Of a stretch of DNA of 54,944 nucleotides, positions 4,213 through 39,043 are shown piece by piece; the stretch's first letter is position 1, and each line of letters begins with the position of its first letter. Under the pieces are notes generated by a model, which worked only from the letters and a program-made list of their open reading frames with translations, had not been told where the DNA came from and did no database searches. This DNA comes from a virus. Made by a program: the position numbers and the translations under genes. Where the stretch lies: IMG/VR virus record IMGVR_UViG_3300015371_000046, positions 1 through 54,944 of that record, one strand, 5' to 3'.

Positions 4213-4779
4213 GTGAGTTATCTGCTCGGTAGAAAAGAGTACGTACGCCAGTGGAGATTGAAAAATCTCGACAGGATTCGTGCTCACGAGCGGGAACTCT
4301 ATCTTAAAAACAAAGAACTAATTAGCATTCGGCGTAAAGCACGGCGTAAACTTTTCATTGAACACGAAAAAGGGTATCGCAAGGCTTATCGACTAAAACA
4401 TCTTGACAAAATAAGAGAATACGATCGGATTTGGAAAGTCAGGCAACGACAAAATACTCCCGAAAAAGCTCGTGAGAATGAACGTCGTAATTACGCTAAT
4501 AATCCCAAGCGGTTTCTGGAAAAGAACCGAAAACGCAAAACCTTGAAGCGAAATGGAATTATTGCTGATTGTTCGCAGAGATTGAAAGTCTTGGAACTAG
4601 AACGTTTTTGTCACTGGTGTTGTTGTCCACTTACAGATTCAAATCGAAGTATTGATCATGTAACGCCTCTTGCCCGAGGCGGTCATCATATTCCAGAAAA
4701 CTTGGTCGTTGCCTGTAAGAAATGTAATTCGTCACGCGGGGATAAACTAATTTCAGAGTGGACGTGGGAGGCAGCATGA
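4213..4779 (+). CDS. HNH endonuclease, free-standing
   Basis: A 188-residue protein from GTG 4213; the upstream ATG at 4211 is immediately followed by a stop. The first 100 residues are very basic and rich in Arg, Lys and Tyr (a DNA-binding arm). The C-terminal HNH module reads HWCCCPL, then SIDHVTPLARGGHH, ENL and CKKCNSSRG, with the zinc cysteines and the catalytic His in place. The stop overlaps the portal ATG (ATGA), and the portal ribosome site lies within this gene. It is probably a homing-type nuclease inserted between head genes. Confidence 0.88.
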   Translation: MSYLLGRKEYVRQWRLKNLDRIRAHERELYLKNKELISIRRKARRKLFIEHEKGYRKAYRLKHLDKIREYDRIWKVRQRQNTPEKARENERRNYANNPKRFLEKNRKRKTLKRNGIIADCSQRLKVLELERFCHWCCCPLTDSNRSIDHVTPLARGGHHIPENLVVACKKCNSSRGDKLISEWTWEAA

Positions 4780-7070: not shown

Positions 7071-7384
7071 CGATAGATCAGTTCCGATCACATAAATTTT
7101 TGCCAGTCCAATGGCGCAAAGAGCTTGTGACCAATGGGATCTTGCAGGCAGTGCTGGAAGTGCTGAACGATAGTCACCCATCACGGTTTGCCGTGCATAC
7201 TGACATTCAAGACGACCTTTCACCTACCAAAGCGGCGTTGGAACTGGGATTTACCAGAGGCTACAGCGCCGTTCTTAATACCATCCGTACGCTTGCTGAT
7301 CCAAAGCGAGTCAGCGAAAGCGTTGGACCACCAAGTTACGAAAAACCACCAGTAGAAGAAGAGGCAACCTATGGCAACCAGTGA
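7067..7384 (+). CDS. Hypothetical protein between portal and scaffold
   Basis: A 105-residue soluble protein that I do not recognise. It starts in an ATGA overlap with the portal stop and its end overlaps the next gene by 14 bases, so it is translated in the head operon. Middle part: PTKAALELGFTRGYSAVLNT. The tail is proline- and glutamate-rich. Similar small genes between portal and scaffold are common in phages and usually uncharacterised. Confidence 0.75.
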   Translation: MTIDQFRSHKFLPVQWRKELVTNGILQAVLEVLNDSHPSRFAVHTDIQDDLSPTKAALELGFTRGYSAVLNTIRTLADPKRVSESVGPPSYEKPPVEEEATYGNQ

Positions 7385-8663
7385 TCCCGTCATCCAACCA
7401 CCAACCCCAGTAATCCGTCAGACCGATACCCCAGAGGAAGTCGCGCATACCCTTGCGAATGTGCAGAAGATTTTCGACAAGGTAGCTCCGCACATGGGCG
7501 ACGCTCCAAAACCAGAGCCACCAAAAGTCGAGGTTCCTACGGTGCAACAGCCGACAGAATCAGCCACAGAACCAGTAAAGACAGAAGAACCGTCCACAGC
7601 CCCAGAATCACCAGAACCCGCCGTGACGGTTGAGCCGTCCAAAATCCCTTCATTCATCGAGAAAGCCTTAGCCGTAGAAGAAAGTCAACCAGAATCGCCT
7701 AAACCTGTAGATGATCTACCCGAAGAACTACCCACGTTTAAGACCCCGGAAGAATCCAAAAACAACTGGAGACAGTTCCGTGACAAGTACAAACAACTCA
7801 AAACCGAACTGGACGCAATCAAGTCTCAGCCTCGTGGAACGGACGAAAAGACGACACAGGAGCTTGAGTACTTAAGGAACCAGACAAAGGAACTGTCACA
7901 AACCCTGTCACGGCTGGGGGTAGAACGTCACAGCGAGTTTCAGCAGAAGATCATCGCCCCAATGACAGCGGCGTGGAACGATGCCGCTGGGATTGTGCAG
8001 GCAGCAGGAGGTAACCCGCAGGACTTGGCTAAAGCCATGGCGTTGAGTGGTCGGGCGCACTTTGAAGCCATGGACGAAATCTTTTCAGGGTTGCCAGAGA
8101 CAGCAAAGTTGGAGGCGACTGAAGCCATCCGTGCCTACCGTAAATTGGACAATCAGAGGAGAGCGGCACTGGCAGACGCACCCAAAACCGCTCAGGCACT
8201 CCAGAAAGCCGATCTGGAACGCCAGTACGCACAGGTTGAAAGTCAACGTGAAGAAATGAAGCGGCTGTGGGAAGATGCCGGCCGTAAACTGCGGGATGAA
8301 GCCAAGGTCGAGGTCTTACAGAAAAGTACCGATCCTGACGCTAAATGGTGGAACGAACAGGCCGATCAGTTGGAGGAAACGAGCCGAAAACTGTTCCTTG
8401 AGAACACCGATATGGGTAAAGTAGCCATTGCCATGCGGTTGGCGCCGATGGTGGACGTTTACCGTAAACTTTGGTTGGCAACCCGTCAGGAGTTGGGCAA
8501 AAAAGAGTCAATCATCAAAGAGAAGTTTGGAAGTGAACCGAATCTGAGCGAGAGCGGTGGGAACATCCGCGGGAACGGTGCGTCACTGGACGAAGACCTT
8601 AAAAAGCCGTTTGCAGACGTATTCCTGAAGAAGTTCCACGAACTACGCGCCACAGGAAGATGA
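7371..8663 (+). CDS. Putative scaffolding protein
   Basis: A 430-residue protein. The first 130 residues are acidic and rich in Pro, Glu, Thr and Val (probably disordered). The rest is charged helix and coiled coil (TELDAIKSQPRG, QVESQREEMKRLWEDAGRK). There is no enzyme motif. Order portal, this gene, capsid, with this composition, matches phage scaffolding proteins that guide capsid assembly and are then lost. The call rests on position and composition only. Confidence 0.65.
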   Translation: MATSDPVIQPPTPVIRQTDTPEEVAHTLANVQKIFDKVAPHMGDAPKPEPPKVEVPTVQQPTESATEPVKTEEPSTAPESPEPAVTVEPSKIPSFIEKALAVEESQPESPKPVDDLPEELPTFKTPEESKNNWRQFRDKYKQLKTELDAIKSQPRGTDEKTTQELEYLRNQTKELSQTLSRLGVERHSEFQQKIIAPMTAAWNDAAGIVQAAGGNPQDLAKAMALSGRAHFEAMDEIFSGLPETAKLEATEAIRAYRKLDNQRRAALADAPKTAQALQKADLERQYAQVESQREEMKRLWEDAGRKLRDEAKVEVLQKSTDPDAKWWNEQADQLEETSRKLFLENTDMGKVAIAMRLAPMVDVYRKLWLATRQELGKKESIIKEKFGSEPNLSESGGNIRGNGASLDEDLKKPFADVFLKKFHELRATGR

Positions 8664-8666
8664 TGC

Positions 8667-8695
8667 TTGACAATTCCCTAACGACTCAGTAGTAA
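8667..8695 (+). promoter_or_regulatory. Candidate sigma70 promoter before the small head genes
   Basis: TTGACA (8667-8672), a 17-base spacer and TAGTAA (8690-8695). The segment ATGCTTGACAATTC (8663-8676) is identical to the one at the promoter for the gene at 52583. The next ATG (8705) is nine bases after the -10 box, with an AAGGTG that could serve as a ribosome site. The -10 box is weak. Confidence 0.5.
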
Positions 8696-8704
8696 GGTGT
8701 TCCC

Positions 8705-8902
8705 ATGAGTCAAAAAATGAGTATGGGCATGGGAAAAGGTTGCAACTGCAACGTCAGTGGTGCAGGAAGTTTAGGCGCGGCAATTCCGGCAATGGGTCAT
8801 GCTACCAGCCGTCCGGGGCTTCCAGCGTGCGACCGTGAAAACATCGGGAGCGCAAAAATCTACAAGCGAACCCCTGGCGCGGCGCGATTCAAAAAGAAGT
8901 GA
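8705..8902 (+). CDS. Small glycine/methionine-rich protein
   Basis: A 65-residue protein beginning MSQKMSMGMGKGCNCN, then a Gly/Ala segment and a basic C-terminus (PGAARFKKK). I recognise no family. It is the first of five tiny genes between scaffold and capsid, each overlapping or nearly touching the next. It follows a candidate promoter. Confidence 0.6.
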   Translation: MSQKMSMGMGKGCNCNVSGAGSLGAAIPAMGHATSRPGLPACDRENIGSAKIYKRTPGAARFKKK

Positions 8903-9051
8903 ACCCTCCAAAACCTCCTCTGGGACACAAAACCCAGATCAAGAATTTCAAGACCGGCGGGTTGCGCACCAAGAACCCGTTCTATTCCATGACCGGCAGT
9001 ATCGCCGCTACCGAAAAACGGCGTAAACCCAAAATGCCGGGATTCAAATGA
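8899..9051 (+). CDS. Very small basic protein
   Basis: Fifty residues from a GTG that overlaps the previous stop (GTGA). Basic and proline-containing: NPPKPPLGHK at the start, EKRRKPKMPGFK at the end. It is translationally coupled on both sides, since its end overlaps the next ATG. Function unknown. Confidence 0.5.
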   Translation: MNPPKPPLGHKTQIKNFKTGGLRTKNPFYSMTGSIAATEKRRKPKMPGFK

Positions 9052-9212
9052 CCGTTTACAAAATCATGTACGGCGGCACCGCGGTGGTTGGCATCGTGGT
9101 CAGCAAAGACGGGAACACCAATTCTGATCAGGCGTTAGCGAACTGGAACTCGGCCAACCCAAGCTACGAGGGTGACAGTGCCGAATCAGCCCCTTTTCTT
9201 GAACAACCATGA
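9048..9212 (+). CDS. Very small protein, possible fold with beta hairpin
   Basis: Fifty-four residues starting in an ATGA overlap: MTVYKIMYGGTAVVGIVVSK, then a polar Asn/Ser-rich part. It is possibly a small virion decoration or assembly protein given its position just before the capsid gene, but nothing proves this. Confidence 0.5.
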   Translation: MTVYKIMYGGTAVVGIVVSKDGNTNSDQALANWNSANPSYEGDSAESAPFLEQP

Positions 9213-9262
9213 AGAAGAAAAACCGAAAAGGTAAAAAGCCACCACCACCGATAGGATATTAA
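9209..9262 (+). CDS. Mini-ORF, 17 residues
   Basis: MKKKNRKGKKPPPPIGY, starting in an ATGA overlap. It may be a translation-coupling peptide between its neighbours and not a functional protein. Reported because the chain of overlapping starts runs through it. Confidence 0.25.
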   Translation: MKKKNRKGKKPPPPIGY

Positions 9263-9264
9263 CC

Positions 9265-9432
9265 ATGCAAAACCTCGGACTCGTACTACTCGTATTCTCG
9301 TTTGTCTGCTTCGTAATCGCCTGTTTCCAAGTAGCAGCCCCTTGGTGGAACAAGCTGATTGCGGCAGGACTGGCGTTCTTAGTCGCTGCCAATCTCTTTG
9401 GCGGTTTAGCCGCCCTCCATTACATACGTTAA
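9265..9432 (+). CDS. Small membrane protein with two hydrophobic segments
   Basis: Fifty-five residues with two probable membrane helices: LGLVLLVFSFVCFVIACF, and from about residue 32 LIAAGLAFLVAANLFGGL. A short polar turn with WWNK lies between. It starts two bases after the mini-ORF stop. A small two-helix membrane protein in a head operon could be a second holin or a membrane-active factor; that is inference. Its stop codon overlaps the stop of an opposite-strand ORF. Confidence 0.55.
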   Translation: MQNLGLVLLVFSFVCFVIACFQVAAPWWNKLIAAGLAFLVAANLFGGLAALHYIR

Positions 9433-9575
9433 GCAGCCGGATCGGTTTGGAGAATGTGATCCCTGTTCTTGGCGATCATCATCCTGCCATACTCGGTGCT
9501 GATTAGTTTATCGCTCTCTTCAGTCTGATCGTACAGTTCAGGAGCGGTTTCGTGGACTTGATCTTCTTCTGCCAT
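9429..9575 (-). CDS. Small acidic ORF on the opposite strand
   Basis: Forty-eight residues: MAEEDQVHETAPELYDQTEE, then a helix-like part with YGRMMIAKNRDH. It is the only minus-strand ORF in the head region that fills otherwise empty DNA instead of shadowing a gene. It is tail-to-tail with the membrane protein gene, with stop codons overlapping. There is no strong ribosome site. If not a protein, the transcript could act as antisense RNA to the capsid leader. Confidence 0.35.
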   Translation of the reverse strand: MAEEDQVHETAPELYDQTEESDKLISTEYGRMMIAKNRDHILQTDPAA

Positions 9576-9585
9576 AATTAAAAAG

Positions 9586-9613
9586 ATTGACAGACTGAAG
9601 TTTATCTGTCAAT
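9586..9613. promoter_or_regulatory. Perfect inverted repeat upstream of the capsid gene
   Basis: ATTGACAGA (9586-9594) and TCTGTCAAT (9605-9613) are perfect complements separated by ten bases. The left arm contains a TTGACA -35-like hexamer, with only a poor -10 candidate 17 bases on. It could be an operator, or a hairpin in the transcripts of either strand. Confidence 0.4.
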
Positions 9614-9803
9614 AACCATTTCGACGTTACAGGCGTCCCGTCAACGCCAATTCGTGGTAGCCATAAAATAGTTCGCCGCCACGCGAACAAAAGCCAGCGA
9701 CTGATCTAGGTCGGAAACCAGTCACCCGACAAAAGCGATTGCCACTTCGCTTTGCGTCTTGGGCCATCAATCGCTGGTAGTCAGAACGAAAGGACAAAAT
9801 TTT
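9614..9803 (+). promoter_or_regulatory. Structured leader of the capsid gene
   Basis: A 190-base non-coding stretch with several inverted repeats. GTTCGC (9671-9676) pairs with GCGAAC (9683-9688). AAAGCGA (9732-9738) pairs with TCGCTTT (9747-9753). AGCGATTG (9734-9741) pairs with CAATCGCT (9768-9775). The last two share their left arm, so they exclude each other. A ribosome site (AAAGGA, about 9789-9794) follows about ten bases before the capsid ATG. This looks like translational control of a highly expressed gene, but no known riboswitch is recognised. Confidence 0.45.
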
Positions 9804-11000
9804 ATGGCATGTACGGATACAATCAAAAATGCCTTCTATGCCCTTACCGGGCAAGTATCCCCTCGTCTGTATAACCGCATCAGTATCAATGATCCGTGGG
9901 TGGCGTATGTCGAGAAGGCCGAGTGGCCTACCGGCATGGGTTTTACCATCAACTCAATGACGCTGGAGCGCAGTTTGACAGATACGGAAGACGGAACGGA
10001 ATGGACAGCAGCTACCCCCTCTGGAAGCGGAGATACCGCAACCACGAACAATAACTGTTTGCCTACCCCGGAAATCCTGAAATTCGGTCAGACCCTGACC
10101 AGTTTCACCATGTACCGCAGGAATATCCAGACGGAGAACTTCTGCATTAACGATCTGCAAAACGATTTCATGATCTCGCAGACGTTGAGCAACGTCATGG
10201 ATCAACTGGAAACCGTCACCGAATGGGTGTGGTCGAACCGGTTCCAAAACGAATACATGGCTCTGTGTGATCACAAGGTCACAGAAAAACAGACCGGGTT
10301 CAATATCGGTGGAACCACCTTCGACTTCGCCGGAGCACCGCCGACATCACGCCTGCTCAACGGGACACTTGAACAAATCTACATGCAGCTCGTCCTGGAC
10401 GGGGCGGTTGCGACCAGTGGCGCCATTGGAAAAGGTGCAAATGATCAACCGATCTTTGCGCTGTTTACCGATGCGACAACGAGTCGTGATCTTATCCGGC
10501 AAGATCCAGAGCTTCGTATGGACTTCCGGTATGCTGATCCGGATAAACTCATCAACACGCTTGGCACGCCTTATTCCTACAACGGATTTAAGCATGTCTG
10601 GCTGAAATTCCCGCCTCGGTACGATGCGAGCGGGAACAGGGTTTACCCGTACTCGGCACCACTGGCGACCACCAAGGGTTGGAAACGAACCGTAAACGCC
10701 GCGTACATCTACGCGCCGTATCAGGTTTCGTTCATCTTTATCCCGACCGTGTTCACCTGTCTGTACGAGCGGCCTTCGACCAATCCCGGTGGAGGCATCA
10801 AGTTCGATTACGCCAGTCACATGGGCGAGTTTCAGTTCCTGGTCATCCCTGACAAGGAATGCAATCCTCGCGGTGAACTGGGCTTCTTTGACGCTCTTTA
10901 TGCGAGCGCAAGCCAGCCTGGTCACACCTACCTTGGCTGGGCAATCGCTCACTTGAACTGCCCGCCACTGCGGACGCCATTGCCGTCCTGCTACTCGTAA
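9804..11000 (+). CDS. Putative major capsid protein
   Basis: A 398-residue protein. ATG 9804 is chosen over the in-frame TTG 9759 because AAAGGA lies at good spacing and residues before the ATG fall in the leader hairpins. It has mixed beta/alpha composition, no membrane or catalytic motif, and several cysteines (NNNCLPTPE, CNPRGELGF, near C-terminal CPPL and SCYS). It follows the scaffold, has its own long leader and is followed by a hairpin, as expected for the major head protein. The call is from position and size, not from a recognised HK97 motif. Confidence 0.7.
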   Translation: MACTDTIKNAFYALTGQVSPRLYNRISINDPWVAYVEKAEWPTGMGFTINSMTLERSLTDTEDGTEWTAATPSGSGDTATTNNNCLPTPEILKFGQTLTSFTMYRRNIQTENFCINDLQNDFMISQTLSNVMDQLETVTEWVWSNRFQNEYMALCDHKVTEKQTGFNIGGTTFDFAGAPPTSRLLNGTLEQIYMQLVLDGAVATSGAIGKGANDQPIFALFTDATTSRDLIRQDPELRMDFRYADPDKLINTLGTPYSYNGFKHVWLKFPPRYDASGNRVYPYSAPLATTKGWKRTVNAAYIYAPYQVSFIFIPTVFTCLYERPSTNPGGGIKFDYASHMGEFQFLVIPDKECNPRGELGFFDALYASASQPGHTYLGWAIAHLNCPPLRTPLPSCYS

Positions 11001-11005
11001 GAGTG

Positions 11006-11057
11006 TGCTAATAACGCCGGTCTAAGGAACACGCCTTTAGGCCGGCTGATTAGCGCA
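11006..11057 (+). terminator. Long imperfect hairpin after the capsid gene
   Basis: An inverted repeat with GCCGG..CTAAGG pairing to CCTTTAGGCCGGC around a short ACACG loop. It extends outward through TGCTAAT and ATTAGCGCA. It fills the gap between the capsid stop and the next ATG. No T-run follows, so it may be an attenuator or an RNA 3'-end stabiliser more than a full terminator. Confidence 0.5.
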
Positions 11058-11062
11058 TTGTT

Positions 11063-11425
11063 ATGAAGCCAGGACGATACGATCTCCCCATAATCTGGCG
11101 GGGATCAACCTACCCCGAAATCACCTTTACCTGGCTGGATGCCAACGGTAAACCGACCAATCTGAATGGGTGGATACCACGGGCACGCAGTCTGAACATA
11201 GATTTTAGTCCTGTGGTCGTGGATGAAGCCAATGGGGTGACCAAGATCAGTTTTACCAAGGATCAGACCGGCAGAATGAAGCTGGGCATCGAATGGTGGG
11301 ACTGGGTTTTTGAGCATGTCGGTGGTGGCGCTAACGCGGTAAGAACAGACCCTCTGCTTCGGGGAACAGTAGAGATCAAAGACCCGGCAACAACAACAGG
11401 AGGGGAGCAACCTTTCAATGGCTGA
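11063..11425 (+). CDS. Small fibre-associated beta-domain protein
   Basis: A 120-residue protein. The start (YDLPIIWRGSTYPEITFTW, then DANGKPTNLNG) is the pattern of small beta-sandwich domains at the base of phage fibres and receptor-binding proteins. Those domains typically begin with a short polar leader, an RG.T step and a D.NG.P..L.G turn. It overlaps the start of the collagen-like fibre gene by eight bases. It is likely a connector or fibre-base protein. Confidence 0.6.
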   Translation: MKPGRYDLPIIWRGSTYPEITFTWLDANGKPTNLNGWIPRARSLNIDFSPVVVDEANGVTKISFTKDQTGRMKLGIEWWDWVFEHVGGGANAVRTDPLLRGTVEIKDPATTTGGEQPFNG

Positions 11426-14144
11426 TGACACATTTGGTGGCGTAGTAATAGATCGGCCCGAGCCGGATGTAATCGTGGTCATCAATCAGGGTGGGCACGG
11501 TGGCGGTCAAAGCGGGTTTAGCGGCTATTCAGGCAGCGGTGGCAGCAGTGAAAATCCAGGAGCCAGCGGGTATAGTGGTCGATCAGGATTTAGTGGTCCC
11601 CGCGGTCTGAGTGGGTTCAGCGGATACAGCAGTTCCAGTGGTTACAGCGGATATTCAGGGCTGGGACCAAGTGGGTTTTCAGGGTATTCAGGCGCATCGG
11701 GTATTTCAGGTCCAGGTGGAGGTAATTCGGGCTACTCAGGGTACTCAGGACTGGATGGAACGTTTTCTGCCAGCGGGTATTCCGGTTACAGTGGGTTCTC
11801 AAGCCGAAGCGGGTTTTCAGGGTTCTCTGGAAGTGGGGTTTCCGGTTACAGCGGATATTCGGGATATTCGGGTCAAACCGTTTCAGGGTTCTCAGGATTT
11901 AGCGGGTTTGGTCAGAGTGGGTTTAGCGGGTTTTCTTCCCAGAGTGGGTTTAGTGGATTTTCGGGTAAAAGTGGGTATTCCGGTGGACCGTCCGGGTTCA
12001 GCGGGTTTTCAGGCACAGGAAGTCCTCCGGGCGGTACCACTGGCAACTTCCAGTACAACGATGGTGCGGGCGGATATGCTGGGTCGCCATATCTCAACGC
12101 TGACGTTGCAGCAAACACGTTTGCCACCAATACCAGGTTCTTTTTCCAGGACGTAACTGATCCAACCAAAACAGTTAGGTTCGATACAGCTCCAATTCCT
12201 TCGGGCGGCAACGTCATCATCAGGGTTCAGGGCACTTCCACAACGGTTATCGCCAATCCTGCAACATCTAATAATTTCGTAACCGGGATTGGGGCAAGCG
12301 GGGACGTTACCAAGGCGCAACCGACCTTTTCAAACTTAGCTGGGTTGGCAACCTACGGGCAGATGGATCGGAGCACCACTGTTCTGGCCGAGACCAACAT
12401 CATCACCATTGCTGCCAATACCAAGGTCAAAAGTCAGGCCAGCGGCACTCTGACCACGATCGCTTTCAGCGGTGGCGATAATCAACAGCAGGGTCGCAGG
12501 CTGGATTTGGATGTCACCGGTGGTCCGTACACGCTTTCAATCCCGACCAGTCGTCGGATCGGTGAAACTGGTACCGTTAATTCCATTGCGATCTCAGCCG
12601 GTTATCACGAATTTTCATGGGAATATATCAATGGCGAGTACGTTTTGTCGGATTCCGTTCCGGGCACAACCACAGGGACAGGAACAAGCGGTTACTCAGG
12701 CTACAGCGGCAGAAGCGGGTATTCAGCTTACTCGGGCTTCAGCGGAGCTACCGGAGCAGGCTCAAGCGGTTTCTCGGGCTTTAGCGGGCCGGGTTCAAGC
12801 GGATTTTCAGGCTACAGCGCCCCTAATCTTCTCACTTTCTCTACTCACAACGACACCGATTACACCCTGATTCTAGCTGATGCCAATACTGGCATCATCA
12901 TGGCGTCCAGTGCGGCTCATAATCTGACCGTACCTACCAATGCTAGCGTTCCATTTGCATTGGGAACACAAATCCCTATCGAGCAAGGCGGAACTGGAGT
13001 TGTATCCGTAGTACCAGCAGCAGGAGTGACCTTGCAGGGTGCTTCAACCACCAGTGGTCAATATTCCTGCGTTGTTCTGATTAAGCAGGCCTCAAATACA
13101 TGGTTGGTAGCCAAGACTGGAACTTCTGGGTACTCAGGATACTCAGGCGGGGCTGGATCTGCCGGTTCAAGCGGATTTTCAGGGTACAGCGGTGGTGGAC
13201 CTTCAGGCTTTAGCGGATATTCCGGTCCGGGGTCCAGTGGATTTAGTGGATATTCGTCATTCAGCGGGTTCAGTGGAAAAAGTGGTTACAGTGGTTACAG
13301 CGCACCACAGCTTCTGACGTTCTCAACTCAGACTGACACCGATTACACTTTGGTGGCTGGCGATGCCAATACTGGTGTCAAGATGAGCAGCAGTTCGGCT
13401 CATAATCTCACGGTCCCACCAAATTCAAGTGTGGCGTTTGCTATTGGAACACAGATACCAGTAGAACAGGCAGGAACTGGTATTGTTTCAATCGTTGCGG
13501 GGGCAGGCGTGACTCTACAAGGAGCTGCTGCAACTAGCGGACAATATTCATTGGTTGTTTTAATAAAACAAGCTACGGATACATGGCTGGTAGGAAATGG
13601 AAACTCTGGTTATTCAGGATACAGTGGATCGTCAGGTATTAGCGGTTATTCAGGTTATAGTGGATTCTCAGCTTTCAGTGGTTTTTCAGGAACAGGAGGA
13701 TGGACTAAATTCACCGTAACTGGATCGGATGTAACAACAACTGGACAGACGTTAGTTGACATCACAGGTCTTGTAAGTGGAACTCTTTCTAACAGCACTC
13801 TATATTCCATTAGGGCAGAACTATACATTGGTACTTCTAATGTAGTCACTGGAACACAATACGGGATTCATCTTGGTGGAACTGGTGCGGCTGGAGTGGT
13901 TTCTTCTCTATTCACTAGCACTACGACTGCATTGGCCACTAATGGATGTACAGTGAATGCCGCAGATACTGCCACTAGCATTGTGTGTCTCACGGCATCC
14001 AATATAAATGGAGTAGCTGAGTTTAGGGGATTTGTTACTACAAGAAGCACTGGAACTGCCACAATTTCGATTCAACACCTTAAAGTAACCAGCGGAACCA
14101 GTACGGTGAAGATTGGTTCTTGGATGGAAATCAGACCAGCATAA
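11418..14144 (+). CDS. Collagen-like tail fibre with GFS/GYS repeats
   Basis: A 908-residue protein. After a short N-terminus come long runs of the tripeptide G-F-S or G-Y-S with occasional inserts (residues about 30-195, and further blocks near 420-470, 575-630 and 730-760). Gly at every third residue is collagen-like, but the aromatic X position is unusual. Two copies of a domain of about 95 residues sit between blocks; each holds DTDYTL, LADANTG or GDANTG, AHNLTVP and LQGA. The C-terminal 130 residues form a beta-rich head starting WTKFTVTG. It is probably a trimeric fibre. Confidence 0.8.
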   Translation: MADDTFGGVVIDRPEPDVIVVINQGGHGGGQSGFSGYSGSGGSSENPGASGYSGRSGFSGPRGLSGFSGYSSSSGYSGYSGLGPSGFSGYSGASGISGPGGGNSGYSGYSGLDGTFSASGYSGYSGFSSRSGFSGFSGSGVSGYSGYSGYSGQTVSGFSGFSGFGQSGFSGFSSQSGFSGFSGKSGYSGGPSGFSGFSGTGSPPGGTTGNFQYNDGAGGYAGSPYLNADVAANTFATNTRFFFQDVTDPTKTVRFDTAPIPSGGNVIIRVQGTSTTVIANPATSNNFVTGIGASGDVTKAQPTFSNLAGLATYGQMDRSTTVLAETNIITIAANTKVKSQASGTLTTIAFSGGDNQQQGRRLDLDVTGGPYTLSIPTSRRIGETGTVNSIAISAGYHEFSWEYINGEYVLSDSVPGTTTGTGTSGYSGYSGRSGYSAYSGFSGATGAGSSGFSGFSGPGSSGFSGYSAPNLLTFSTHNDTDYTLILADANTGIIMASSAAHNLTVPTNASVPFALGTQIPIEQGGTGVVSVVPAAGVTLQGASTTSGQYSCVVLIKQASNTWLVAKTGTSGYSGYSGGAGSAGSSGFSGYSGGGPSGFSGYSGPGSSGFSGYSSFSGFSGKSGYSGYSAPQLLTFSTQTDTDYTLVAGDANTGVKMSSSSAHNLTVPPNSSVAFAIGTQIPVEQAGTGIVSIVAGAGVTLQGAAATSGQYSLVVLIKQATDTWLVGNGNSGYSGYSGSSGISGYSGYSGFSAFSGFSGTGGWTKFTVTGSDVTTTGQTLVDITGLVSGTLSNSTLYSIRAELYIGTSNVVTGTQYGIHLGGTGAAGVVSSLFTSTTTALATNGCTVNAADTATSIVCLTASNINGVAEFRGFVTTRSTGTATISIQHLKVTSGTSTVKIGSWMEIRPA

Positions 14145-17555: not shown

Positions 17556-19175
17556 ATGTCATTCGTCCAATTTCAGTTCAGACGCGATCCGGCTGCCACA
17601 TGGACCAGCGAGAATCCCATACTTGCCGAAGGGGAATTGGGTCTTGAAACCGATACTGGTAAATATAAGGTAGGGGATGGATCAACCGATTGGGTCACCC
17701 TCACCTACAAAGGAATTGGATCAAGCGGTTACTCAGGTTATAGCGGACTTGGAGTCAGCGGTTTCAGCGGGTTTTCAAGCCCAGGGACTTCGGGGTTCAG
17801 TGGATTTTCAGCCGCAAGTCCGGGACCAAGCGGTTACTCTGGTTTCTCAGGCCAAAGCGGTTATTCTGGGTTTTCAGGCACGGGCGAAAGTGGGTACTCT
17901 GGGTTCTCGGGCGTGGGTGTCAGTGGCTACTCAGGTTACAGTTCCCAAAGCGGTGTCTCTGGATACAGCGGATATTCAAGTTCTTCAGGCTACTCTGGCT
18001 ACAGCGGTTCGGGAGTTAGCGGGTTCTCTGGCTTCTCGGGTGCCGGCACGAGCGGTTTCAGTGGATTCTCAGGAGCAGGTCTAAGCGGATTTTCAGGGTT
18101 TAGTTCCACCGCTCCTGGCACCAGCGGGTTCTCTGGGTTTAGCGGTGCTGGAACTTCGGGGTTTTCAGGGTTTAGTGGTGACGCTACTAGCGGGTTTTCA
18201 GGGTACTCGGCTTATTCAGGCTATAGTGGCACGGCCGGATCAATCGGGGTGGATGGAGCTTCTGGGTTCAGCGGTTTTTCAGGGCTTTCGGGATACTCGG
18301 GCTATAGCGGTTATTCAGGAGCAGGGCTTAGCGGTTATTCAGGCTATAGTGCGTTCTCTGGCTACAGCGCATACTCAGGCTATTCAGGTCCGCAACTCCT
18401 GACCTTCGCCACCGTTACCGATGCGGATCATCCGCTTGTTCTGGCAGACGCTAATACCGGCCTCAAGATGAGTTCGGCTGCGGCTCACAGCGTCAATATC
18501 CCGTTAAACGCTACTCAGGCATTCCCAACCGGAACACAGATCGTGGTTGAACAGGCTGGTGCTGGGATCGTATCAATCACGGTCACAGGTGGAGTGACGT
18601 TGCAGGGTGCTTCAGCCACCAACGGGCAGTACTCGACGGTCTGCTTAATCAAACAGGATACCGATACGTGGCTTGCAACGGTGTCAGGTGTATCTGGATT
18701 CTCAGGGTTCAGTGGTAAAAGCGGCTATTCCGGATATTCGGGTTACAGCGGGATTAGCGGTTACTCAGCGTTCTCGGGGTTTTCAGGGGCACCTCTGGCT
18801 ACATGCGGGGTTGCAACCTCTCCAACTGCTACACAGACAGATGCTATTACTCATGGATTAGGCAAGACCCCTGTTATTATCAGGCTGTACGGAATTGGAT
18901 CATTCACCAACAATGCGTCAGCAACGCCTACTACTCATTGCATTGGAATTTACAGTTCAAGCGGGAATCGGTGCGTTTATCAGCCTTACGATCCCAGTGC
19001 GATTACTGGAGCGGAACCTGGGGCAACTTCAACGGCTTACGCGGTAAGACTTGACACAGGTGCCAATGCTTTCATAACAGGAGTAGTCCAAAATGTCGGG
19101 GCAACAACGTTCGACATCGCCTGGACAGAAACCGGCACATCTGCTGCACAAGTTTATATGTGGGAGGCGCAATGA
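17556..19175 (+). CDS. Second collagen-like fibre with Mtd-type N-terminus
   Basis: A 539-residue protein. Residues 1-50 (FQFRRDPAATWTSENPIL, AEGELGLETDTGKYKVGDGS) match the short N-terminal domain seen in phage tropism determinants and fibres (Mtd_N type). Then come about 230 residues of GFS/GYS repeats and one copy of the same LADANTG domain found twice in the fibre at 11418. A shorter repeat block and a beta-rich C-terminus (about 120 residues) follow. The shared domain points to module exchange between the two fibre genes. Confidence 0.8.
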   Translation: MSFVQFQFRRDPAATWTSENPILAEGELGLETDTGKYKVGDGSTDWVTLTYKGIGSSGYSGYSGLGVSGFSGFSSPGTSGFSGFSAASPGPSGYSGFSGQSGYSGFSGTGESGYSGFSGVGVSGYSGYSSQSGVSGYSGYSSSSGYSGYSGSGVSGFSGFSGAGTSGFSGFSGAGLSGFSGFSSTAPGTSGFSGFSGAGTSGFSGFSGDATSGFSGYSAYSGYSGTAGSIGVDGASGFSGFSGLSGYSGYSGYSGAGLSGYSGYSAFSGYSAYSGYSGPQLLTFATVTDADHPLVLADANTGLKMSSAAAHSVNIPLNATQAFPTGTQIVVEQAGAGIVSITVTGGVTLQGASATNGQYSTVCLIKQDTDTWLATVSGVSGFSGFSGKSGYSGYSGYSGISGYSAFSGFSGAPLATCGVATSPTATQTDAITHGLGKTPVIIRLYGIGSFTNNASATPTTHCIGIYSSSGNRCVYQPYDPSAITGAEPGATSTAYAVRLDTGANAFITGVVQNVGATTFDIAWTETGTSAAQVYMWEAQ

Positions 19176-21109
19176 CGAGCATCATAATTCCAACCTGTAA
19201 AGAAAAGAACCTGATTCCCTGCTTGGAATCCATTCGGAAGTACACCGAAGGTGATTATGAAATCATCGTAGTGGCTAATGGCTTCGACAATGAGCAAGTC
19301 CTAGATGCGGACACAGTGCTCTGGTTCGATTACAAAATCGGTTATCCGAGAGCCTGCAACGCTGGGATCAGGATAGCGAAAGGAGAGTTCATAGTTTTAC
19401 TCAATGATGACACCATTCTTTTACCTCAGGGAATTAACGATTGGCTCAATATCCTGTCTGCTCCTTTCAGTGATCCTAAAGTTGCTATCACTGGTCCTTG
19501 GATGATGCGGAACACAGAGATCCAGCAGGATTTCCTGTGCTTTTTTTGCTGCATGATCCGTAAAAGTGCTCTCGATACTATCGGACTTCTCGATGAAATT
19601 TTCGGGGCTGGTTACGCTGAAGATGTGGATTTGTGCTGCCGCGCCGTCGCCTCTGGCCAACGGTTGGTACAAGTTCCGAACGATGGGAAGGTGCCGTACG
19701 ACGGGCGATTAGGACTCGGCACCTTTCCCATCTATCACGAAGGCAACAACACCTTCAAAAACTGGCCGGGTGGCGAAGAACTGATGGCTAAAAACCACGC
19801 TATCCTCCGTGAACGCTACGGAGGGGTATTGATTTCCAATGCCCAGAAACTGGGGGAATGGATGAGTGACGCCGAGCTTACGTGGTTGGGGAATCAGGCT
19901 CGGAAATCGAAGGTGGTGATTGAATTGGGTAGCTGGTTTGGGAAGAGTTCGACAGCCATTGCTGATAATCTTCCGGCAGATGGGGTTCTTTACTGCATTG
20001 ATACTTGGGCTGGAAGCGCAGCAGAGAAGGACACGAATCATGTTCAGGCCAGGGAGTTAGATGGCGATTTCGCATTTAACCAGTTCTTACACAATTTGTG
20101 GCGGCATGTCGAGACCGGAAAGCTGAGACCGATCCGGCTGCACGGACGCCACGCAGCCAAATTCTTCAAGGATATGGGGGTCAAAGCCGACATGATATTT
20201 ATCGACGCCGGCCATACCAAAGAAGAAACCAAGGAAGACATCTACACTTTTGCAACACTGGTCAAAGATGGCGGAACACTGTGCGGACACGATTATTGGC
20301 AACCGCTTTGGCCGGGGGTGACTCAGGCCGTAGATGAAATTTTCGGGATCAGCGTATGCGGGAACGAAGGCACATCAATCTGGTCCACGACCAAAATGCC
20401 CAGACCACCCATCTACGAGTGCATGATGTTCAACAACGAGTTTGATATTCTGGAGCATCATCTGAAAACCATGTGGGACGCCGTTGACCGGTTTGTGATC
20501 GTGGAAGGCACAATCAATCACGCCGGCAAGCCTAAACCGCTCCATTTCAAAGAAAACATGGCGCGGTACGAGCGTTACCTATCCAAGATCAGCCATGTTG
20601 TGGTCGATGACTTTCCTCCATTTGATGGAACTGAACGAAGCGCATGGGACATTGAACGCCACCAGCGCAACTCCATGATGCGAGCACTGGCTCACTGCAA
20701 CGATACGGACATTATCGTGGTGGTGGATTGCGATGAAATCCCGAACCCTGAAGCGGTTAAGAACTTTACTGGCGATACAATCCACGCGCTCCGGATGGAT
20801 CTTTATCTGTACGATTACAAGGTGAAAGCCAAAGACCCGTGGCGCCATGGAAAGATCATGCGCTACTGGCAACTGTTCCAGATCACCCCGACTTCGGCAC
20901 GGTATCTGACAGACGTTCCAGACATCGTTCCAGGTGGCGAACATCTGTCATACTTTGGAGGGATTGAGGCGGTACAGGAAAAGATGCACAACACCGCTCA
21001 CCGCAACATTGACGTTCCACAGTTTACCGATCCAGAGCACATCAAGCATTGCATCGAGAACGGTCTGGATTTGTTCGATCGAGACATCAAATACGAGGTG
21101 ATGAAATGA
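19172..21109 (+). CDS. Three-domain GT2 - methyltransferase - GT17 enzyme
   Basis: A 645-residue fusion. Residues 1-190 are a GT2 glycosyltransferase (TSIIIPTCKEKN, FIVLLNDDT with the metal-binding acidic residues at about 78-80). Residues about 225-395 are an AdoMet methyltransferase of the Methyltransf_24 type (VIELGSWFGKSST, IFIDAGHTKEET, DGGTLCGHDYW). Residues about 413-645 resemble GT17 N-acetylglucosaminyltransferases (YECMMFNNEFDILEHHL, FVIVEGTINHAG, VVVDCDEIPNP). ATG 19172 follows a GGGAGG ribosome site and overlaps the fibre stop. It probably builds and methylates a glycan on virion or host surface. Confidence 0.85.
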   Translation: MTSIIIPTCKEKNLIPCLESIRKYTEGDYEIIVVANGFDNEQVLDADTVLWFDYKIGYPRACNAGIRIAKGEFIVLLNDDTILLPQGINDWLNILSAPFSDPKVAITGPWMMRNTEIQQDFLCFFCCMIRKSALDTIGLLDEIFGAGYAEDVDLCCRAVASGQRLVQVPNDGKVPYDGRLGLGTFPIYHEGNNTFKNWPGGEELMAKNHAILRERYGGVLISNAQKLGEWMSDAELTWLGNQARKSKVVIELGSWFGKSSTAIADNLPADGVLYCIDTWAGSAAEKDTNHVQARELDGDFAFNQFLHNLWRHVETGKLRPIRLHGRHAAKFFKDMGVKADMIFIDAGHTKEETKEDIYTFATLVKDGGTLCGHDYWQPLWPGVTQAVDEIFGISVCGNEGTSIWSTTKMPRPPIYECMMFNNEFDILEHHLKTMWDAVDRFVIVEGTINHAGKPKPLHFKENMARYERYLSKISHVVVDDFPPFDGTERSAWDIERHQRNSMMRALAHCNDTDIIVVVDCDEIPNPEAVKNFTGDTIHALRMDLYLYDYKVKAKDPWRHGKIMRYWQLFQITPTSARYLTDVPDIVPGGEHLSYFGGIEAVQEKMHNTAHRNIDVPQFTDPEHIKHCIENGLDLFDRDIKYEVMK

Positions 21110-22125
21110 CGGTCACTTGCGGCATCCCAACAAAGAATCGGTACGACAAACTGGTGCTCACGCTTCTATCAATAGCGTTCCAGACTCGTAAACCCGATCA
21201 TATCATCATCATTGATGATACCGATAATCCCACTGATCTACGAACCATCCCTGCGTATCAAAACATATTTGAGCTGCTCAATGCTCGCGGGATAACGTTT
21301 CAACTTGAATACGGGGTAAAACGGGGACAGCACATTTCGCATCAGCGGATACAGGAAATGGCGGCGACGGACTGGATTTGGAGAGTGGATGACGACGAGA
21401 TACCTGAACCTGACGTTCTGGAGAGGCTGATCGGTACCGCCACTTGGGAGGGCACCAAGGTTGGCGCCGTTGGTGGACTGGTTCTTATGCCAAATCCTGC
21501 TCCCGTTCCCGACCGGAACGTTACCAACTCCATTTTGGACCCCAACTTTAATGTCCAATGGTTTACTCATCCTACGCAGCGTACGATTGAGGCGGACCAC
21601 TTGCACTCCACCTTTCTGTACCGGCGCGGGGTCGAGAAGTTCAATCCGTTCCTGTCTCCTGCTGCTCATCGTGAGGAGACTTTATTTACATACGGTCTGA
21701 AACGTCAAGGCTACAGAATCCTGATTGATACATCGGTAAAAACATGGCATTTCCGTGATTCTCTAGGTGGAATCCGTAGTCATACCAACCCTCAATACTG
21801 GGAGGACGACGAGAGATTATTTCAGGCGCAGTTAGCAGAATGGGGCGTAACCGGTGACCAGACCAAATATATCGTGCTCGATGCCGGTCGTGGCGATCAT
21901 GTCTTGGTGAAAACCCTTCTACCGCGATTGAAGGAAAAGTATCCAAGACTGGTCGCCGCTACCTGCTACAAAGACATTTTTAACGGGGAAGTAGAACAGA
22001 TTTCAATCGCTGAAGCCCACCAGAGACTGGGGAACCTGGACAGGTTCAACGTCTATCGGTGGTGCGGGGACAACCAATGGACCGGTGAATTGGTGAACGC
22101 GTACGAAAAGATGTGGGATTTATGA
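21106..22125 (+). CDS. GT2-family glycosyltransferase
   Basis: A 339-residue protein starting in an ATGA overlap. Residues 1-235 have the GT-A fold marks: VTCGIPTKNRYDKL, HIIIIDDTDNP, WIWRVDDDEIPEP (DxD-type metal site) and a late TWHFRD. The C-terminal 85 residues (KYIVLDAGRGDHVLVKTLLPR) look like the beginning of a GT9/heptosyltransferase-type Rossmann domain that the next gene continues. It may work together with that protein. Confidence 0.82.
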   Translation: MTVTCGIPTKNRYDKLVLTLLSIAFQTRKPDHIIIIDDTDNPTDLRTIPAYQNIFELLNARGITFQLEYGVKRGQHISHQRIQEMAATDWIWRVDDDEIPEPDVLERLIGTATWEGTKVGAVGGLVLMPNPAPVPDRNVTNSILDPNFNVQWFTHPTQRTIEADHLHSTFLYRRGVEKFNPFLSPAAHREETLFTYGLKRQGYRILIDTSVKTWHFRDSLGGIRSHTNPQYWEDDERLFQAQLAEWGVTGDQTKYIVLDAGRGDHVLVKTLLPRLKEKYPRLVAATCYKDIFNGEVEQISIAEAHQRLGNLDRFNVYRWCGDNQWTGELVNAYEKMWDL

Positions 22126-22571
22126 ATATCCTCTTCGCACCATTCGCAGCGCGTGCCCCGCAACTCAACGGAAGTGGGTCTCCTAAGGATTATCCCTTTG
22201 CAAAAGACCTGATTTCCATGATAGTAGAAAGCCATAATGTTATCCAGGTAGGCGGGGAGGGCGAAGAACAGATGGCCCCCACTTTTCGTAAAAACCTGTC
22301 GTTTGGGCAGGTTGGGGATTTAATCGCCATGTGCGACACCGCAATCTGTGTCGATTCATATCTCCAGCACCACATGTGGTTCCTAAATAAGCGAGCCATA
22401 GTTTTATGGGGGATTTCCGATCCTCTGATTTTCGGGCACTCTCTCCACTGCAACCTCCTGAAAGACCGCTCGTTCCTGCGCCCAAACCAGTTCGATCTGT
22501 ACTACTCAAACCAACATCGGCCCGAAGCGTTTGTCAGTCCAGATGTAGTCTTGAAGGCACTTGAACTATGA
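22122..22571 (+). CDS. GT9/heptosyltransferase-like domain protein
   Basis: A 149-residue protein from ATG 22122, overlapping the previous stop. It has the second Rossmann half of GT-B enzymes: NVIQVGGEGEEQM, FGQVGDLIAMCDTAICVDSY, RAIVLWGISDP and a late Tyr-rich segment. This matches the nucleotide-sugar half of ADP-heptose-type transferases. It is short of a complete enzyme, while the preceding protein ends with a matching first half. A split two-subunit GT-B enzyme is plausible but unproven. Confidence 0.7.
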   Translation: MNILFAPFAARAPQLNGSGSPKDYPFAKDLISMIVESHNVIQVGGEGEEQMAPTFRKNLSFGQVGDLIAMCDTAICVDSYLQHHMWFLNKRAIVLWGISDPLIFGHSLHCNLLKDRSFLRPNQFDLYYSNQHRPEAFVSPDVVLKALEL

Positions 22572-27921: not shown

Positions 27922-29391
27922 ATGCCATTTGAGACTTACAAAGACCTCACTGGTGCCGGACTAAGGCCAACCACCTACGGACCTGGTAGTCCGAACGCAA
28001 CCAGAGCGGATCTTAAAGAGTTTATTGGTCTAAACGATCAGAGGCTTCGGTCTGGTGACGCTGGATTACCAAGGAATATTGCCAGACGTTATGGACTTAA
28101 TGTTGGCGATCCGTTCCAATTTGGCGGAAAAACCTACACGTATAGAGATCAACCAAATACCAAGGTTGGCAATGTCATAGACATTTATCATCCAGCATCA
28201 AATACTGCTGCACCAGATACCGGAGTAGATAATCCATTTGCTGGCGGGTACCCTGCTCAGGGCACTCAATCTTCATCCGGAGAGACAACTGATAATCCGT
28301 TCGCAGGAGGATACCCAACCAGTGTTCCTGACGCTGTCCAGCCAATCGGTGGAATTGATTTGCCTCCAATAGGTGCCCAGGAACCCACAACCGCGCCATA
28401 CAATGTTGCATACGAAGGTGGACCCGGACCGTGGAACGTACCGACTAATGAAACCATGACCCCAATCGGGTCAGATCAGTACTTTCCCAGTGAAGGTGGG
28501 AACATTCCAACCCCGGAGTATATGCAACCCACGGGACCGGACCAGTATATCTCCACTGCTCCTGCCAACGTTCCTACCAATGAAGGAATGATGCCGACTG
28601 GTCCCAACGATTTTCTACCAAGTGCAGGAGCAGACATCCCTACCAATGAAGCGATGTACCCAACTGATCTACAACAATATCTGCCATCAGATGCCGGTGC
28701 CAACATCCCTACCAATGAGGATATGACGGCAACTCTGGCTCCAGATGCTTTTGGGATGAGTGAAGCCCCAGCGACATTTGCCTATCCAGCAGGGGATGGA
28801 ACCTATACGACGCTTGACGCAGCAACTGGACAACCGGCGTCAGCCCCTGCCCAGCCAGTCTTTGATGTCAATACCAACGCTACCGGACCTCTCTACGGTG
28901 ACCAGAAAAAACCAACCACTTTCTTTCAGGATTTAGGGGCTGATGTGACCGACATCACAAATGCGTTTGGAACAAGTACTCCGTATAATACTGCTCTTTC
29001 TGGTGAACCGGGGTTTGGCGGGCACCCCAGTTCATATACCGGACCCGGTGGTGGAGCGTTCTGGAGTCCTCCAGGTGGTTCCATAGGTGGACCGCTTGGC
29101 ACCGGTAGCGCAGGTCAACTTTATTACGATTGGTTTGCTCGCATGGCTAAGGCGCGTATGCAACGCGGACAAGATCCAACCCTCGGGATGGGACGCCCAG
29201 GGTCTGCTGGGTCTGATTTCGCAGTAGCAGCCCAAGGCCAAGGTGCAAGGGGTAGAGCGCAACAGGCCATGATCGGGGCACCGATAGTAAACCCAGCCTA
29301 TCTTAATCCGCCAACCCCGGAATCATCTTCACGTAAACCAGGTGGTGGCGCAGGTCTGACCACAGGCGGTGGACCGGGAGGAATAGCGTAA
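27922..29391 (+). CDS. Repeat-rich virion protein with a possible double-psi barrel
   Basis: A 489-residue protein. About residues 25-90 contain NIARRYGLNVGDPFQFGG then NTKVGNVIDIYHP. This is the pattern of a double-psi beta-barrel of the RlpA/3D type (ordered, placed near the N-terminus). Next come two DNPFAGGYP copies and five degenerate repeats of 22-23 residues starting (N/D)(V/I)PT(N/P)E (about 172-275). A Gly/Pro-rich C-terminus follows. It could be a virion-associated cell-wall-facing protein. Catalytic residues cannot be judged, so the hydrolase idea is weak. Confidence 0.6.
   Translation: MPFETYKDLTGAGLRPTTYGPGSPNATRADLKEFIGLNDQRLRSGDAGLPRNIARRYGLNVGDPFQFGGKTYTYRDQPNTKVGNVIDIYHPASNTAAPDTGVDNPFAGGYPAQGTQSSSGETTDNPFAGGYPTSVPDAVQPIGGIDLPPIGAQEPTTAPYNVAYEGGPGPWNVPTNETMTPIGSDQYFPSEGGNIPTPEYMQPTGPDQYISTAPANVPTNEGMMPTGPNDFLPSAGADIPTNEAMYPTDLQQYLPSDAGANIPTNEDMTATLAPDAFGMSEAPATFAYPAGDGTYTTLDAATGQPASAPAQPVFDVNTNATGPLYGDQKKPTTFFQDLGADVTDITNAFGTSTPYNTALSGEPGFGGHPSSYTGPGGGAFWSPPGGSIGGPLGTGSAGQLYYDWFARMAKARMQRGQDPTLGMGRPGSAGSDFAVAAQGQGARGRAQQAMIGAPIVNPAYLNPPTPESSSRKPGGGAGLTTGGGPGGIA
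28435..28737 (+). repeat. In-frame tandem repeat, five units of about 66-69 bases
   Basis: Each unit encodes about 22-23 residues beginning with PTNE or PTPE and containing a (D/N)-(Q/D)-Y-(F/I/L) or similar segment plus a Pro-Ser step. Units have diverged in sequence but keep the frame. Confidence 0.7.
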
Positions 29392-30974
29392 TGGCAATCC
29401 ATGATGCCAATCGTGTGTACGACGGCTGGGTGAGCCTTGAGGGTGGGGTGGATGGTGGGCGTACACCGACGCTGCTCGACCCCAATCAATGTGCCAGTGC
29501 TGAGAATATGGTGTTCCGTGGCGGACATCCCAAACCCAGACCTGGGTTCCGTAAGCTCACCGAAACAGTCTCTAACCCGGATCATTGTTACTATTTCAAA
29601 GGCGATAATAATCCTGGGGACGTTGATCCTGCTGTTTACAACGAAGATACGACCAGTCCGTTTTATCATCAGGATGCAACCTTGTCGTACAGGGAAGGAG
29701 TGTTTCAGGGGATCATCGGTTATAGCCCTCACAAAGGTGAAGATTGTTTAATGGCGTCGATCAACGGGCGTCTGTTCAAAATTGTTCCACGAGTGACAGA
29801 TGCCACCGTAACCGAGATCGAACTTCCTTACCGGAACACTAATCTGCGCCCAATCGCTTACATGCTACAGGCCGATAAATGGCTGATCGTACAGGACGGC
29901 CATGCCAGTGCAATCATCTATGACGGTCAGACCGCTCGACGCGCCAACGAGAACAATACGTACGATATAGCCCATACTCCGAACAGGGTGACGACCTACA
30001 TCACTGACCCTGAAAAGATCGAAATCCCTGTAGGAACAATCATGGCCTACGGGATGGGGCGAATTGTAGTGGTAGTGAACGATCGGGACATAGCTTTTGG
30101 GGATCTTTACGGAAGCCATATCGGTAATGACCCCGCCGATTCATTGATTCTGTTTACTGAACGCAATTTTCTGACAGGCGGTTTCGATGCAGCCATCCCG
30201 TTTACGCAGGGTGTCGCCACCGGTGCCGCGTTCTTTCCACAACTGGACACTTCTACCGGGAATGGTCAGTTAATGGTGTTCGCTGAACGCGGTGCCTCCT
30301 CTTTCTTTTTGTCTCTTCCAAGGGAACTATGGCAGACATCACAGTTCCAGATCCATGCTCTCGCCACTACCGGGCTGCGCGGTCACCGGAGCATATCGGT
30401 CGTGAACGAAGATATGTGGTTTAGGAGTGAAGATGGCTACCGTTCATATCGTCAGGCTCGGAGTGAAGCGTCAGGCTGGGCGCACATCCCGCTCTCCACA
30501 AACGTCAGAGAGTTCATGGAGACAGATACCGCAGAGTTTTTGAAGTACGGATCATCTATCTACTTCGATAACCGGATCATCGGCACCTGTTCACCGTACC
30601 CCCACAATAATATCTACGCCACACATCAAGGGATGGTGGTGGTGGACTTTGATATTCTGTCGAGCTTCGGTGAGAAGTTCAGGCCGGCGTGGGATGGGCA
30701 CTGGAACATGTACAAGAGTGATATTCAATTTTACCAGTTGGTTACGGGCAAGTTCCAAGGGGTGACCAGAGCGTTCGCGTTTGGGAAGGATGGCGATGGA
30801 AAGAACCAGCTGTACGAGATTTCAATGGATGACAAGGATGATTTTGATGGTCACGTGGAATGGGAACTGGTATCACGTAGTTTTGATTTCAGTAAGATCA
30901 GTCAGCAAGGGAACGCATTTACGGAAAATGAATTGTACGACGGCGATGTCTGGCTCAGGGAAATAGTTGAGTAA
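29391..30974 (+). CDS. Virion protein, candidate tail tubular protein B-like
   Basis: A 527-residue protein beginning with GWVSLEGGVDGGRTP, CASAENMVFRGG and KPRPGFRKL. This start (a list of sites, then R.G....RPGF) is shared by large beta-propeller-type tail proteins of podoviruses. Repeated strands with GRLFKIVP, YDGQTARRA, MWFRSEDGYRSY suggest propeller blades. It sits two genes upstream of another tail-tube candidate (32106). Likely part of the short tail; assigned from pattern and context. Confidence 0.6.
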   Translation: MAIHDANRVYDGWVSLEGGVDGGRTPTLLDPNQCASAENMVFRGGHPKPRPGFRKLTETVSNPDHCYYFKGDNNPGDVDPAVYNEDTTSPFYHQDATLSYREGVFQGIIGYSPHKGEDCLMASINGRLFKIVPRVTDATVTEIELPYRNTNLRPIAYMLQADKWLIVQDGHASAIIYDGQTARRANENNTYDIAHTPNRVTTYITDPEKIEIPVGTIMAYGMGRIVVVVNDRDIAFGDLYGSHIGNDPADSLILFTERNFLTGGFDAAIPFTQGVATGAAFFPQLDTSTGNGQLMVFAERGASSFFLSLPRELWQTSQFQIHALATTGLRGHRSISVVNEDMWFRSEDGYRSYRQARSEASGWAHIPLSTNVREFMETDTAEFLKYGSSIYFDNRIIGTCSPYPHNNIYATHQGMVVVDFDILSSFGEKFRPAWDGHWNMYKSDIQFYQLVTGKFQGVTRAFAFGKDGDGKNQLYEISMDDKDDFDGHVEWELVSRSFDFSKISQQGNAFTENELYDGDVWLREIVE

Positions 30975-39003: not shown

Positions 39004-39043
39004 TAAAAATCCGATGCCCCCTTTCGCGAATTATTTTTTTGCT

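Follow-up and report, generated by a model that had tools for sequence, protein, structure and literature searches.

A GT2–methyltransferase–GT17 fusion protein in a recurrent phage gene cassette associated with collagen-like fibres

The window analysed here is a virus record of 54,944 bases. Its plus strand carries genes of fibre and tail-like type as far as about 38.4 kb, after which a block of minus-strand genes follows. A terminase-like gene (1434–3110) shares 23.7% identity with terminases of Arthrobacter phages, a level too weak to assign a host from it, and no tRNA genes were found in the window. The minus-strand block includes a second group of glycosylation-related genes (38446–44609), among them Methyltransf_24-like, RGP-like, and Stealth_CR2-like genes. 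The following plus-strand features are central to the analysis.

11418..14144, plus strand: collagen-like virion fibre protein 1, 908 residues, 56 G-(Y/F/I)-S triplets (PHROG minor tail and tail fibre matches)
17556..19175, plus strand: collagen-like fibre protein 2, 539 residues, likely substrate, with an Mtd_N N-terminal domain (Pfam, 4.8e-12) and G-(Y/F)-S repeats (Pfam Collagen, 3.2e-14; 48 G-(Y/F/I)-S triplets)
19172..19175, plus strand: ATGA overlap of the fibre stop and the fusion start, preceded by GGAGG (from the sequence; the same in relative L005)
19172..21109, plus strand: three-module enzyme GT2-MT24-GT17, 645 residues, ATG start and TGA stop (Pfam; structure model)
19172..19813, plus strand: GT2 (GT-A) domain, residues 1–214 (PF00535, conservation, fold match)
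19403–19411, plus strand: GT2 motif N78-D79-D80 (conservation)
19619–19630, plus strand: GT2 motif E150-D151-V-D153 (conservation)
19907..20350, plus strand: Methyltransf_24 domain (class I SAM O-methyltransferase), residues 246–393 (PF13578, match to MeT1, 6g7d)
20402..21103, plus strand: GT17 domain, residues 411–644 (PF04724; invariant D521, E522, H591, and K604)
20726–20737, plus strand: GT17 motif D519-C-D521-E522 (conservation)
21106..22125, plus strand: GT2b, a GT2 protein (D95-D96-D97) with a conserved C-terminal region of about 100 residues; cassette marker (PF00535, alignment)
22122..22571, plus strand: GT9L, the other cassette marker, a short protein whose match is to the C-terminal portion of Glyco_transf_9 (PF01075, 24.1 bits, cut-off 22)

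The initial annotation had read the 645-residue frame as a fusion of GT2, Methyltransf_24, and GT17 domains, and this reading was borne out, with all three matches above the Pfam cut-offs (Glycos_transf_2, 56.8 bits, residues 3–95; Methyltransf_24, 56.1 bits, residues 250–375; Glyco_transf_17, residues 404–636). Each third of the protein, searched alone, returned the same family, and the placement of the last domain in GT17, on which that reading depended, is clear at 95.1 bits against a cut-off of 26. The DD metal site and the DCDE motif it had named are both present, at residues 78–80 and 519–522, respectively.

Catalytic residues are conserved across all three modules. Among ten GT2-MT24-GT17 triples, the GT2 domain has D80 of its DXD-like metal site invariant, as well as E150 and D151 in the ED region of the catalytic base, and position 79 is D or N. 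The methyltransferase domain, which contains a SAM motif (E-x-G-x3-G), an acidic SAM residue, and metal-type Asp/His residues, has G253, G257, D277, D345, H348, and D374 invariant in the same ten. In the GT17 domain, D521, E522, H591, and K604 occur in all 33 homologues and D519 in 31 of them.

An AlphaFold2 model of the fusion, built from a 36-sequence alignment, has a mean pLDDT of 91.4. The nearest PDB neighbor of the methyltransferase domain is MeT1 (profile search, 6g7d, E 9.7e-10; VIA Z 21), a characterised oligomannoside 1-O-methyltransferase (PMC9883506), and SpnH, the spinosyn rhamnosyl 4'-O-methyltransferase, is also among the fold matches listed. From the similarity to MeT1 and the fusion to glycosyltransferases, we infer that this module is a sugar O-methyltransferase. 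The fold of the GT2 domain resembles polypeptide GalNAc-transferases (VIA Z 19.2 to GalNAc-T2), a likeness that reflects the shared GT-A fold and does not prove the acceptor. A sequence search found no solved GT17 chain, and the matches of the PDB fold search barely cover the GT17 part. Its Pfam match spans profile positions 66–299 of 348, pLDDT in this region of the model is roughly 90 or higher, and comparison with predicted phage GT17 entries in BFVD gave TMt values of 0.74–0.83 at an rmsd of 2.1–2.6.

Identical copies of the fusion occur in two further metagenome contigs (L002 and L003), and two others (L004 and L005) encode fusions of the same order that are 70–71% identical. The downstream neighbors in the latter two are those of the window, except that in L005 a further small ORF follows the fusion; L005 also has the same collagen-like fibre upstream and the same ATGA overlap. 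Pairwise comparisons gave pN/pS values of 0.19–0.30 for every domain, with synonymous sites near saturation, and hence all three modules are kept by purifying selection. A scan of bacterial genome contigs did not recover the whole fusion; only its GT2 part had a match, in Auribacterota.

GT17 had been thought best known from eukaryotic and some bacterial enzymes, a view that does not hold for environmental phages, in which the family is common. Searching IMG/VR with a GT17 alignment brought up at least 530 stretches that encode it, and it is already annotated in cyanophages, so the rarity of GT17 in phages is no longer the point. The 77 GT17 ORFs inspected are mostly standalone, and some are multi-module. 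The contiguous GT2-MT24-GT17 order was found in the window, in L004 and L005, and in seven more distant loci (L017, L018, L031, L042, L061, L028, and L020). The largest proteins comprise 9 to 12 or more modules; that of L029 has 2,494 residues, and that of L020, open at both ends, at least 2,900. The GT2b domain is itself fused into the multi-module protein in L028, L031, and L042. Module order differs among related phage proteins, which makes position in the chain a poor guide to the order of reactions. A single origin of the GT2-MT24-GT17 order was considered and rejected, as a quick GT17 tree needs three label changes, two of them forced by starred branches. The variable order and the lack of a single GT17 clade for the triple are consistent with module shuffling.

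By sequence and gene order, the fusion is the variable member of a conserved phage gene cassette. The order of the cassette is a G-(Y/F/I)-S collagen-like fibre, a variable multi-module glycosyltransferase/methyltransferase protein, GT2b, and GT9L. In the window, GT2b is directly followed by GT9L (21106–22571), and the G-(Y/F/I)-S ORF (17556–19175) precedes them, likewise on the plus strand; ATGA overlaps join the fusion to GT2b at 21106 and GT2b to GT9L at 22122. GT2b is followed by GT9L in 77 of 78 sampled new loci, and 64 of these 77 pairs overlap by 4 nt; GT9L as the sole query recovered at least 555 relatives. Upstream of GT2b, the variable slot is occupied by GT2, GT2-GT2, or GT2-FkbM proteins and, in the window's kin, GT2-MT24-GT17 as well as the giant proteins. 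All 11 multi-module, GT2-containing GT17 proteins tested (some of them near-duplicates, such as L026/L029) have GT2b on the same contig, compared to none of nine other GT17 proteins. GT2b had no plasmid match, and a promoter scan of the cassette block gave no excess over shuffles. No description of the cassette was found in the open-licence literature; it is widespread and apparently undescribed. The idea that the C-terminal region of GT2b and GT9L are two halves of a split GT-B (GT9) enzyme was also considered but is not put forward: a 300-residue GT9-like ORF in L152 matched the profile of the GT2b C-terminal region at no better than E 0.03–0.06, and a rebuilt profile lost the match.

The fusion had been described as lying directly after the collagen-like fibre genes, and the two genes in fact share four nucleotides, the ATGA at 19172–19175 serving as both fibre stop and enzyme start. 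Together with the GGAGG before it, this overlap suggests translational coupling of fibre and fusion. Neighboring fibre genes and gene overlaps are common in phage late operons, and coupling alone therefore proves little. Of the 31 cassette loci with enough sequence, 25 have a collagen-like ORF whose end lies no more than 6 kb upstream. After dereplication the count is 20 of 23, compared to 1 of 39 standalone-GT17 phage controls (Fisher p 3.8e-12; control contigs were not matched for host or genome type).

The association also holds in reverse. The DNA pattern (G-[YF]-S)4 was searched without reference to any enzyme, and 55 loci truly encode the repeat. GT2b or GT9L was present in 28 of these on the short stored stretch, and GT2b in nine more on the whole contig, for a total of 37 of 55; these contigs were not dereplicated, many are fragments, and one match (L193) is partial. 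About a third of the G-[YF]-S contigs, many being fragments, show no GT2b. None of 45 control contigs had a full-length GT2b, and three gave weak partial matches. The statistical link between cassette and G-X-S collagen is an observed property of these contigs, as is the composition of the repeats: across 58 cassette-linked ORFs, the collagen Y position is Ser in 89% of cases on average and the X position is taken by Tyr, Phe, or Ile, whereas the collagens of control loci (only two) have Pro or Ala at X and Gln or Thr at Y. The earlier suggestion that both Ser and Tyr of the fibres could be targets is thereby narrowed, with Ser at the Y position of the triplet the likely site; Tyr, like Phe, sits at X. 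More generally, both the three-enzyme reading and the proposed link to the collagen-like fibre gain support from recurrence across many distant phage contigs.

These data make it probable that the cassette glycosylates the collagen-like fibre. The main alternative is a role at the surface of the host, where the cassette would alter O-antigen, capsule, or teichoic acid and so block superinfection or change the receptor, its position beside the fibre marking a host-recognition island. This is the usual reading of phage glycosyltransferases (PMC7029224; PMC10202952), and the minus-strand block at 38446–44609 could serve such a purpose. However, the cassette overlaps a gene for a structural protein and recurs alongside G-X-S collagen, a link to repeat chemistry (Ser at Y) would not be expected of a host-surface enzyme, and a non-exhaustive scan of the genes revealed no integrase; we consider a host-surface role unlikely. 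Somewhat less likely again is a different virion protein, such as capsid or tail tube, as the target. The precedent is in mycobacteriophages of cluster O, in which three glycosyltransferases and an O-methyltransferase are described as modifying capsid and tail tube (PMC11600133, citing Freeman 2023), but the recurrent adjacency is specifically to collagen-like genes and the cassette tracks the G-(Y/F/I)-S repeat type.

Glycosylation of phage DNA, with hypermodified bases protecting against restriction, is among the roles proposed for phage glycosyltransferases (PMC10202952). The location of the genes in a virion block, away from DNA metabolism, renders it very improbable here. Nor are GT17, GT9-like, and MT24 enzymes known to act in DNA glycosylation. 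That the fusion is a chance event or an assembly artefact devoid of selected function is hardly credible and is already contradicted by its occurrence on independent contigs, its relatives, the pN/pS values, and its recurrence in other lineages.

Glycosylation of the fibre being the preferred reading, the cassette most likely O-glycosylates and O-methylates fibre serines, working in the manner of chlorovirus A064R. In this model, fibre and enzymes would be co-translated from the overlapping genes. Because GT2b and GT9L are constant, we infer that they lay the core, carrying out the invariant first step or steps on Ser at the Y position of G-(Y/F/I)-S triplets. The GT2-MT24-GT17 protein would then extend, O-methylate, and further glycosylate the Ser-linked core, yielding a phage-specific glycan on the fibre. 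No gene for sugar-nucleotide synthesis was recognised among the window ORFs scanned, and the donors would thus come from the host. The known donor specificity within GT17 is that of the eukaryotic bisecting GlcNAc-transferase (beta-1,4-GlcNAc-transferase III; UDP-GlcNAc donor, N-glycan acceptor), and the initially suggested sequence of sugar addition, methylation, and GlcNAc-type capping is neither favored nor contradicted by the present data.

Several characterised systems resemble parts of this proposal. A064R of chlorovirus PBCV-1 (638 residues, GT-GT-MT) has activities proven on the glycan of the capsid (PMC9614988). Like the fusion, it is virus-encoded, about 640 residues long, and made up of three transferase domains in one chain, one of them a sugar O-methyltransferase. 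A064R builds the outer part of a virion glycan. The domain order and families differ, the likeness being one of architecture, and A064R belongs to an algal virus and acts on an N-glycan carried by its capsid protein. The same virus encodes A111/114R, of 860 residues and GT-GT-GT architecture (PMC9614988). The cluster O mycobacteriophage set similarly consists of phage-encoded glycosyltransferase and methyltransferase genes for structural proteins; as far as the parts of that account consulted go, these are separate genes with capsid and tail tube targets, and no collagen link or GT17 is mentioned. Mimivirus L230, a lysyl hydroxylase/collagen glucosyltransferase, glucosylates peptides of a viral collagen-like protein (PMC9614988) and thus parallels the proposed role of the cassette, but it acts on hydroxylysine, adding one Glc, belongs to other enzyme families, and involves no methylation.

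For GT17 itself, the closest precedents in phages are the cyanophage and megaphage proteins (e.g., PV261924, LR756502), which in contrast to the fusion are standalone; the cyanophage copy lies within a sugar-synthesis cluster. The other standalone phage GT17 contigs tested have no full-length GT2b, and a collagen-like gene is rare among them. In Azospirillum and Niveispirillum, a GT17 domain 34–41% identical is found in a larger, apparently multi-glycosyltransferase protein of 1,034–1,286 residues. Unlike the fusion, this protein is bacterial, its flanks look by eye GT4-like, TPR-like, and GT9-like, and no MT24 was seen in it.

A broader proposal is offered tentatively, as one that may well prove wrong in part or whole. 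The cassette could represent a widespread O-glycosylation system for G-(Y/F/I)-S fibres, in which the fixed GT2b–GT9L core initiates the sugar chain. A shuffling "assembly-line" protein, with anything from 3 to at least 12 glycosyltransferase and methyltransferase modules (645 to at least 2,900 residues), would then build a methylated glycan specific to each phage, and glycosylated Ser at Y might stand in for hydroxyproline and so stabilise a triple helix poor in proline. If correct, the proposal would identify Ser at Y of G-X-S collagen as the likely acceptor of a large set of phage glycosyltransferases that are so far unassigned, would show assembly-line glycan synthases in phages, with modules open to one-by-one comparison, and would provide a testable idea of what keeps collagen helices with little proline folded when hydroxyproline is absent.

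It would also offer one cultured model. Among 50,697 deposited phage records, GT2b and GT9L were found only in Methylophilaceae phage P19250A, where they lie beside a G-X-S fibre. Gene 0023 of this phage, annotated as "tape measure," encodes a collagen of the G-X-S type in which the triplets form runs of 137 and 127. The next gene, 0024, resembles class I methyltransferases, and genes 0025 and 0026 are GT2b and GT9L, respectively.

Beyond the GT2–Methyltransf_24 (MT24)–GT17 fusion, glycosyltransferase domains were noted in other phage loci and in bacterial plasmid proteins, as follows.

L006 (phage locus), 7195-8453: PLOD-type (collagen glycosyltransferase-like) GT domain, then a Methyltransf_24 gene
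L007 (phage), 8001-10034: 677-aa protein with GT2, a middle part and C-terminal MT24
L013, 4495-8349, and L016, 1712-4810: plasmid proteins of Azospirillum and Niveispirillum with an embedded GT17 domain

The PLOD-type domain scores 99 bits, and the methyltransferase gene lies immediately after it. In the 677-aa protein, the middle part is weakly GT17-like, and the domain order resembles that of the chlorovirus transferase PBCV-1 A064R (GT–GT–MT). The plasmid proteins, of 1,034-1,286 aa, are apparently multi-GT proteins. At L020, L029, L030, L061, L028 and L019, phage genes encode proteins built from 5 to 12 GT2, GT17, FkbM and MT24 modules; their lengths run from 1,640 aa to at least 2,900 aa.

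Within the window, at the GT2b–GT9L pair (21106-22571), a weakly supported reading takes the C-terminal region of about 100 aa in GT2b and the adjacent GT9L as the separated halves of a heptosyltransferase-like GT-B enzyme. In the cultured Methylophilaceae phage P19250A, which carries both markers, a nearby gene is the following.

P19250A_0023 (KX815270, L174), 7750-11355: G-X-S collagen-like protein

Its product contains runs of 137 and 127 triplets, and its deposited annotation as a tape-measure protein is probably a misannotation.

Further regions of the window are as follows.

4758-7070, 7371-8663 and 27922-30974: large virion-block ORFs
38446-44609, minus strand: second glyco block, from domain matches

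The three ORFs lacked a confident match in Pfam and PHROG; the phage is distant from described phages. In the second glyco block, two genes are Methyltransf_24-like, one of them scoring slightly under the cut-off; another is RGP-like (reversibly glycosylated polypeptide), and a protein of 722 aa matches Stealth_CR2 weakly.
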